Positions 12,899 through 33,364 of a DNA stretch of 33,364 nt are shown one piece after another. The stretch comes from an uncultured Bacteroidales bacterium (GTDB taxonomy: Bacteria > Bacteroidota > Bacteroidia > Bacteroidales > UBA932). The stretch spans positions 1 to 33,364 of the forward strand of contig ONLD01000018.1 of NCBI GenBank assembly GCA_900318565.1. Reading direction: 5' to 3'. The translations under genes were made by a program, and so were the position numbers. Positions within the stretch are counted from its first letter, which is position 1; every line of letters begins with the position of its first letter. A model generated the notes under the pieces. That model did no database searches, had not been told where the DNA came from, and saw only the letters and a list, made by a program, of their open reading frames with translations.

Positions 12899-13936
12899 CT
12901 AAATTGACATTTCCCCTCGAAGATCTTTCTCCAATTGGGCTTTAACAGTCTCATTATCATCGCTATTGCCCATCAAAAAGAAAAGTTTTCCAAGTGCGCT
13001 CTCCGTGGTGATGTCTCTTCCGCACACGACGCCGGCGTTCTTGAGCGTGCGGCCGGTCGCATACAGGTCCATATTTACCAGTCCCCGCAGGCACTGGGTC
13101 ACATTGAGCAGAATCTTGCCCCTGCGGCTGGACTCCTTGACGATATCCAGGAACCAGTCGCGCGAAGGGGCGTTTCCGCAGCCGTACGTCTCTATTATGA
13201 CGGCGCGGGTCATCGGTCCCAGCAGGATGTCTTCCACGACCTGGCGGGTGATGCCGGGGTGCACTTTCAGTATCGAGACGCGCGTGTCCAGCCCGCAGCG
13301 GATACTGAACGGCCCGTCTCCCGGGCGGCGTATCAGGTCGCGGTTGTAGCGGATGTCTATGCCTGCCTGGGCGAGCGGCGGGAGGTTCGGGGAGCGGAAG
13401 GCCTCGAAGCCCGTGGCGTCCACTTTCGTGCTGCGGTTCCCCCTGAGCAGCAGGGAGTTGAAGTATATGCACACTTCGGGCACGGTGGGGCTTCCGTCGG
13501 CTTCCCTGGAACTTGCTATCTCCACTGCGGATATGAGATTCTCCTTGCCGTCGGTGCGCGGCCGGCCCACGGGCAGCTGGCTGCCGGTGAAGATCACGGG
13601 CTTGCCCAGGTTCTCCAACATAAAGCTCAACGCGGATGCGCTGTAGGCCATTGTGTCGGTGCCGTGGAGCACCACGAAGCCGTCGTAGGCGTCGTAGTTT
13701 TCGAGTATGATGCGGGCGAGTTTCTGCCACATCCCGGGCTCGATGTCGGACGAGTCAATCAGCGGGTCGAAGGTGTAGGAGTCGATTCGCAGTGCGAACT
13801 TGTGCAGCTCCGGCACTTCTTCCATCAGGCTGTTGAAGTCAAAGGGACGGAGGGCCTGGTTGCCCGGATCCTCCTTCATCCCAATCGTGCCCCCGGTGTA
13901 GATGAGGAGCACGGACGATTTGCTGCTAATGCTCAT
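12899..13936 (-). CDS. ansA: Type I (cytoplasmic) L-asparaginase
   Basis: The 345-residue enzyme hydrolyses asparagine to aspartate and ammonia. The first catalytic Thr is in YTGGTIGM (T14/T17). The second triad region is HGTDTM at 91-96, followed by AYSASALSFMLENLGKPVIF. SSDIEP (62-67) binds substrate. No signal peptide is present, which fits the low-affinity cytoplasmic type I rather than the exported type II. The start ATG overlaps the tatD stop (ATGA). The final ~15 residues are polar and no terminator hairpin follows. It is the last gene of the nudix-queA-dprA-tatD block. Confidence 0.9.
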   Translation of the reverse strand: MSISSKSSVLLIYTGGTIGMKEDPGNQALRPFDFNSLMEEVPELHKFALRIDSYTFDPLIDSSDIEPGMWQKLARIILENYDAYDGFVVLHGTDTMAYSASALSFMLENLGKPVIFTGSQLPVGRPRTDGKENLISAVEIASSREADGSPTVPEVCIYFNSLLLRGNRSTKVDATGFEAFRSPNLPPLAQAGIDIRYNRDLIRRPGDGPFSIRCGLDTRVSILKVHPGITRQVVEDILLGPMTRAVIIETYGCGNAPSRDWFLDIVKESSRRGKILLNVTQCLRGLVNMDLYATGRTLKNAGVVCGRDITTESALGKLFFLMGNSDDNETVKAQLEKDLRGEMSI

Positions 13937-33156: not shown

Positions 33157-33229
<73 letters not shown>

Positions 33230-33232
33230 CTA

Positions 33233-33266
33233 AACAGGACAAGTCTTCGGATTTGTCCTGTTTTTT
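33233..33266 (+). terminator. Strong rho-independent terminator of tRNA-fMet
   Basis: A 13-bp stem (33233-33245 with 33250-33262, one G-U pair) closes on a TTCG tetraloop and runs into TTTTTT (33261-33266). It starts 3 nt after the tRNA. Confidence 0.92.
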
Positions 33267-33364
33267 GTTCGCCCAGCACGAACGTACTCTAACGGGTGCA
33301 AGTCCCCAAACCGCCCTGATAGTGGGAAGGTTACAGCCAAAGGCAAGGGTGCCCATCGTGAGGT
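33267..33364 (+). mobile_element. 5' end of a group IIC intron (domain I), truncated by the window edge
   Basis: Directly after the terminator U-tract the sequence begins GTTCGCCCAGCA and continues with ACGGGTGCAAGTCCCC, GATAGTGGGAAGGTTA and GGCAAGGGTGCCC, ending in CGTGAGGT. This follows, element by element and with like spacing, the 5' domain I of bacterial group IIC introns as I remember the Oceanobacillus iheyensis intron. The expected 5' splice consensus GUGYG appears as GTTCG. Insertion right behind a terminator hairpin is the established target habit of class C. The rest, including the reverse-transcriptase ORF and domains V/VI, is outside the window. Confidence 0.75.

Follow-up and report, generated by a model that had tools for sequence, protein, structure and literature searches.

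Class C group II introns are described as inserting after intrinsic terminators, so that genes stay unbroken and the intron is seldom transcribed (PMC4424553, PMC8919778). The second of these, a 2022 survey, states that such introns get few opportunities for transcription (PMC8919778). The locus analysed here follows the same habit at a tRNA gene. The last 98 nt of the window very probably represent the 5′ end of a mobile class C group II intron, inserted by reverse splicing behind the tRNA-fMet terminator, directly following its sixth T (Table 1). The window, that is, the whole 33,364-nt stretch of DNA under analysis, corresponds to the entire contig C56 of a genome bin of 2.31 Mb in 104 contigs, estimated to be 96.5% complete.

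Table 1. Coordinates of the tRNA gene, its terminator and the intron end in the window.
Feature	Position	Strand	Basis and remarks
tRNA-Met (CAU), initiator type	33157..33230	+	ARAGORN and Rfam RF00005, 62.7 bits; terminator of this gene is the intron target
Intrinsic terminator stem-loop, AAACAGGACAAGTC-TTCG-GATTTGTCCTGTTT	33232..33263	+	14 pairs, UUCG loop
T-run, TTTTTT	33261..33266	+	Sequence; first three T also paired in the stem; last bases are the putative IBS1
Very probable group IIC intron 5′ end (domain I start), truncated where the contig stops	33267..33364	+	Identical to two other 5′ ends over 92 nt; 84% identity to the L042 intron

A GGG/CCC anticodon stem and a non-standard first acceptor pair are the marks of initiator tRNAs, and both were found in the alignment of the tRNA-Met (cat) gene. 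The bin contains 41 tRNA places; the 40 besides that of the window were retrieved, and ARAGORN called 39 of them. The anticodon cat occurred in two of these 39, both without the GGG/CCC stem and hence not of the initiator type, and the one uncalled place (L288), which is cut by the end of its contig, reads GTC. The initial annotation had described tRNA-fMet as a single gene, and within the bin this description holds. The terminator hairpin behind the gene is likewise present, with 14 countable pairs rather than the 13 bp first reported. This hairpin was the longest among 12 terminator-like sites in a 20-kb scan, a number that is no richer than in shuffled sequence (mean 17.7), and the 60 nt upstream of the junction folded at −21.1 kcal/mol.

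The 98 nt begin with GTTCGCCCAGCACGAACG at position 33267, on the base directly after the sixth T of the T-run. They share their 84% identity with the 5′ end of a complete intron in a relative (L042), which has matches to RF02001, RF01998 and RF00029. A search of the window and of its last 365 nt against Rfam gave no group II match on the 98 nt, because the stretch is too short (only ca. 14 nt of the RF02001 span are present); the earliest group II model match in L042 begins 84 nt into the intron. The Rfam check proposed with the initial annotation gave nothing on the window itself and succeeded in longer relatives. Among 13 relative loci searched with Rfam, D1-D4-3 was matched in seven, D1-D4-1 in five and domain V/VI in three, with RF02001 matched in seven of the 13. 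The three loci with domain V/VI (RF00029) contained introns of 1914 nt (L035) and 1924 nt (L042 and L046). The L042 intron encodes an intact frame of 475 aa with RVT_1 and GIIM, no other Pfam family at E ≤ 0.001 and a TIGR04416 score of 424 bits. Against solved structures, this protein scored highest with 7uim (420 bits), which we take to be from a IIC intron, followed by the GsI-IIC reverse transcriptase (404 bits), and scored 171 bits with LtrA. By sequence comparison, the reverse transcriptase/maturase of the relatives thus appears nearest to group II and GsI-IIC enzymes. In L035 (about 2460–2462) and L046 (about 2191–2193), from two species, a single stop interrupts the reverse transcriptase at almost the same point, just after RVT_1 and before GIIM. 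In a sample of genomes of the family, the 98-nt sequence itself was present in at least 24 of the 298 others (at least 25 of 299 including its own), with at most three candidates scored per genome, and an exact 40-nt search of viral contigs returned no matches.

A survey with a profile of the intron 5′ end yielded 159 matches, which were reduced to 112 distinct junctions from genomes of the family and from named records; judging from their names, the latter presumably belong to Bacteroidota and Bacillota. Thirteen matches were dropped because they started beyond model position 12, and the remaining dropped matches had < 45 nt upstream or repeated letters. A hairpin ended within 12 nt of the junction at 99 of the 112 sites, with no called hairpin at the other 13, and in 91/112 the final ten bases included five or more T. 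Control positions 100, 150 and 190 nt upstream had such hairpins in 21/111, 23/111 and 21/108 cases, and shuffled sequences in 71/336. The targeting of terminators by class C introns, on which the initial annotation had relied, is therefore evident across the survey (99/112 vs. 21/111). Separately, six of the loci (L016, L022, L023, L026, L027 and L028) carried only the first 30–68 model positions behind a terminator, followed by unmatched sequence. They appear as 3′-truncated stubs; incomplete reverse transcription would be expected to produce the opposite kind of remnant.

Three intron 5′ ends were found in the bin, namely in the window and on contigs C51 and C103 (all seven candidates scored), and they were identical at 92/92 nt over their shared part. 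The ends on C51 and C103 also lie at contig ends, each behind its own separate hairpin and T-run; the bases before the junction read TTTCT in both, compared with TTTTT in the window, and the window copy reaches 6 nt beyond either. A search using the terminal 100 nt of the complete L042 intron identified three 3′ ends, on C37, C10 and C36, again all at contig ends; they share an identical 97 nt that runs to CTCGAT. Such a set, three ends of each kind and no body, is the usual assembly residue of a recent multicopy element, and the contig of the window stops at 33364 because the element is a repeat. RVT_1 had no match in the bin, and neither did RF00029 at E ≤ 0.001, the latter possibly because the contigs with 3′ ends begin inside domain V. 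Accordingly, of the mobile copy with an encoded reverse transcriptase that the initial annotation had envisaged, the mobile family stands, given its multiple copies and empty sites, while the enzyme was not detected in the bin and is predicted only from relatives.

These copies also bear on whether the junction and the element are what they seem. The copy behind tRNA-fMet could be a decayed 5′ stub rather than a complete mobile intron, as at those six of the 112 loci that match only the first 30–68 model positions although their contigs run on, one of which (L026) is situated behind tRNA-Arg. However, the window copy is identical to two others over 92 nt, its contig stops within the shared repeat, the kind of break that a long repeat would cause, and 3′ and 5′ ends are equal in number in the genome, which makes a stub unlikely. 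An assembly chimera, in which the end of a repeat was wrongly joined to the tRNA-fMet contig, is conceivable for a bin of 104 contigs in which the contig concerned ends in a repeat. Nevertheless, the join sits exactly where the element meets its flank elsewhere (behind a hairpin in 99/112), with the T-run intact, and the window exceeds the other two copies by 6 nt; we consider such an artefact very improbable. The preferred reading remains a genuine intron copy at this site.

The two ends of one further copy can be paired. The flanks of the C51 5′ end and the C37 3′ end adjoin in G553 in the same order, and the C37 flank also neighbours C51 in G338, although positions 13389–15613 of C37 are inverted there. 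This synteny supports the pairing of C51 with C37 and would leave C10 or C36 to supply the 3′ end of the window copy. No frame of C10, C36 or C37 had a match in the stretches around tRNA-fMet of G289, G337 and G553, also with a laxer cut-off. Beside the intron 3′ end on C36, a gene of ca. 1.2 kb (G000:C36, about 57668–58832; L092, 17669–18833) had the opposite orientation to the adjoining stretch in G289 and G337 and, judging by strands, in G553, G338, G355 and G356.

Empty sites were recognised in three relatives (G289, G337 and G553), in which synteny with the window ends exactly at base 33266 after a last aligned block of 2.1–3.4 kb. In G289, TTTTTT is followed by TATTTTATC, with T at position +1. 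In all three 3′ flanks of the bin, T comes right after CTCGAT, which fits T as the first 3′ exon position. The 98 nt were absent behind tRNA-fMet in 23 of the 23 relatives compared, including two (L072 and L083) whose sequence extends no further than the junction. The possibility that the 98 nt are merely a conserved flank of tRNA-fMet with no intron involved, which the initial annotation had named among the cases that would overturn its reading, found no supporting point: the sequence follows tRNA-fMet in 0/23 relatives, three sites are empty, and the same 98 nt occur at unrelated loci. We regard it as practically discounted. Taken together, the empty sites, the copies in the genome, the longer relatives and the survey of 112 junctions bear out the original identification of a group IIC intron start directly behind the fMet terminator.

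The same region showed repeats of another kind in the relatives. A core comprising the tRNA-fMet 3′ end and terminator (CTACTAAACAGGACA, ≤ 2 mismatches) recurs at least once 1.5–14 kb downstream of tRNA-fMet in six of 23 relatives examined (L088, L087, L231, L239, L241, where it is weak, and L245); L248 had no core at all, and the core occurs once in the genome of the window. In L088 (G337:C40), copies lie at about 2105, 4993 and 7974, and the later ones are followed by flanks that, by eye, resemble those directly after tRNA-fMet in other species, as if modules had been stacked. In L231 and L245, a frame with Pfam Resolvase (PF00239) lies between the tRNA and the repeat.

Nine of the 112 junctions (8/111 without the window) are located behind a tRNA gene, all on the same strand and none on the opposite one. 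The isotypes are Pro, Gln and Arg (two each), Cys, Leu and Met, the window providing the sole Met. Both intron ends were seen in three of the nine cases (L126, L165 and L130), and no 3′ end was found for the other six in the DNA examined. A control stretch 250–750 nt upstream contained tRNA genes at 2/94 loci. For 8/111 tRNA sites, p was 0.002, 0.03 or 0.19 when tRNA terminators were assumed to make up 2, 3.3 or 5% of all terminators. Because the outcome hinges on this assumed share, no enrichment of tRNA sites is claimed. A pattern search of 400 congeneric genomes for tRNA-fMet with such an intron, which is blind to broken contigs and to tRNA ends or introns that have diverged, found one case, that of the window itself. 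A second match (G505) was set aside, having no terminator-like T-run in its letters. Matches to the tRNA, terminator or intron were obtained in 368 of the 400 genomes, with at most two candidates scored per genome, and were thus kept out of the counts. Therefore, tRNA-fMet is a single case and is not preferred as a target within the genus. A broader proposal, that tRNA terminators, which are strong, in constant use and devoid of coding sequence, might serve class C introns as a preferred refuge, and that the fMet 3′ end might also be a landing site shared by several kinds of mobile element in the genus, is speculative and on balance rather doubtful. No description of introns behind tRNA terminators was found by title or abstract start in the open-licence literature.

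The insertion may be pictured as follows. An intron of ca. 1.9 kb, the length in complete relatives, would have been reverse-spliced into DNA right after the sixth T and then copied by its reverse transcriptase, pushing the old flank (the sequence that stands there in relatives) downstream. Recognition of the target would involve the hairpin, a short IBS1 and T as IBS3; the EBS1 loop of this copy falls outside the assembled part. The window copy is predicted to be of full length, to encode a functional protein, to splice and to be mobile. Since the hairpin and T-run are left intact upstream, the tRNA should still terminate normally, and the intron would lie outside the terminated transcript, dependent on either read-through or its own promoter. 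The initial annotation had portrayed this site as a safe and always-transcribed niche. The first attribute is plausible. The second appears doubtful, because read-through should account for most transcription of an intron that lies behind an intact terminator.

The value of the locus lies in a clean instance of terminator targeting, supported by empty sites, at a tRNA gene present once in its bin, and the intron repeat accounts for the ends of the window contig and of five other contigs of the bin. The share of tRNA sites could be developed into a test of which properties suit a terminator as a target. The picture of how class C introns work is unchanged; the position of the intron reflects the usual habit of the class and is real but largely expected. 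As with GsI-IIC of Geobacillus stearothermophilus and bacterial class C introns in general, insertion is just after an intrinsic terminator, and the protein, here taken from the relative L042, combines a reverse transcriptase with a maturase domain. In contrast to that system, the host is a relative of Bacteroidales, and the window copy is known from its first 98 nt alone. Group IIC-attC introns of integrons are also of class C and also use an inverted-repeat target (PMC4424553), although their target is attC instead of the terminator used in the window. Further counterparts are the tRNA-flanking introns of Bacteroides sp. Marseille-P3684 (tRNA-Gln, L126), Paenibacillus rubinfantis (tRNA-Arg, L165) and a Bacteroidales MAG (tRNA-Pro, L130), which occupy the same position relative to the tRNA terminator on the same strand; they differ from the window in having both ends present, ca. 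1.9 kb apart, and in following tRNAs other than its tRNA-Met.
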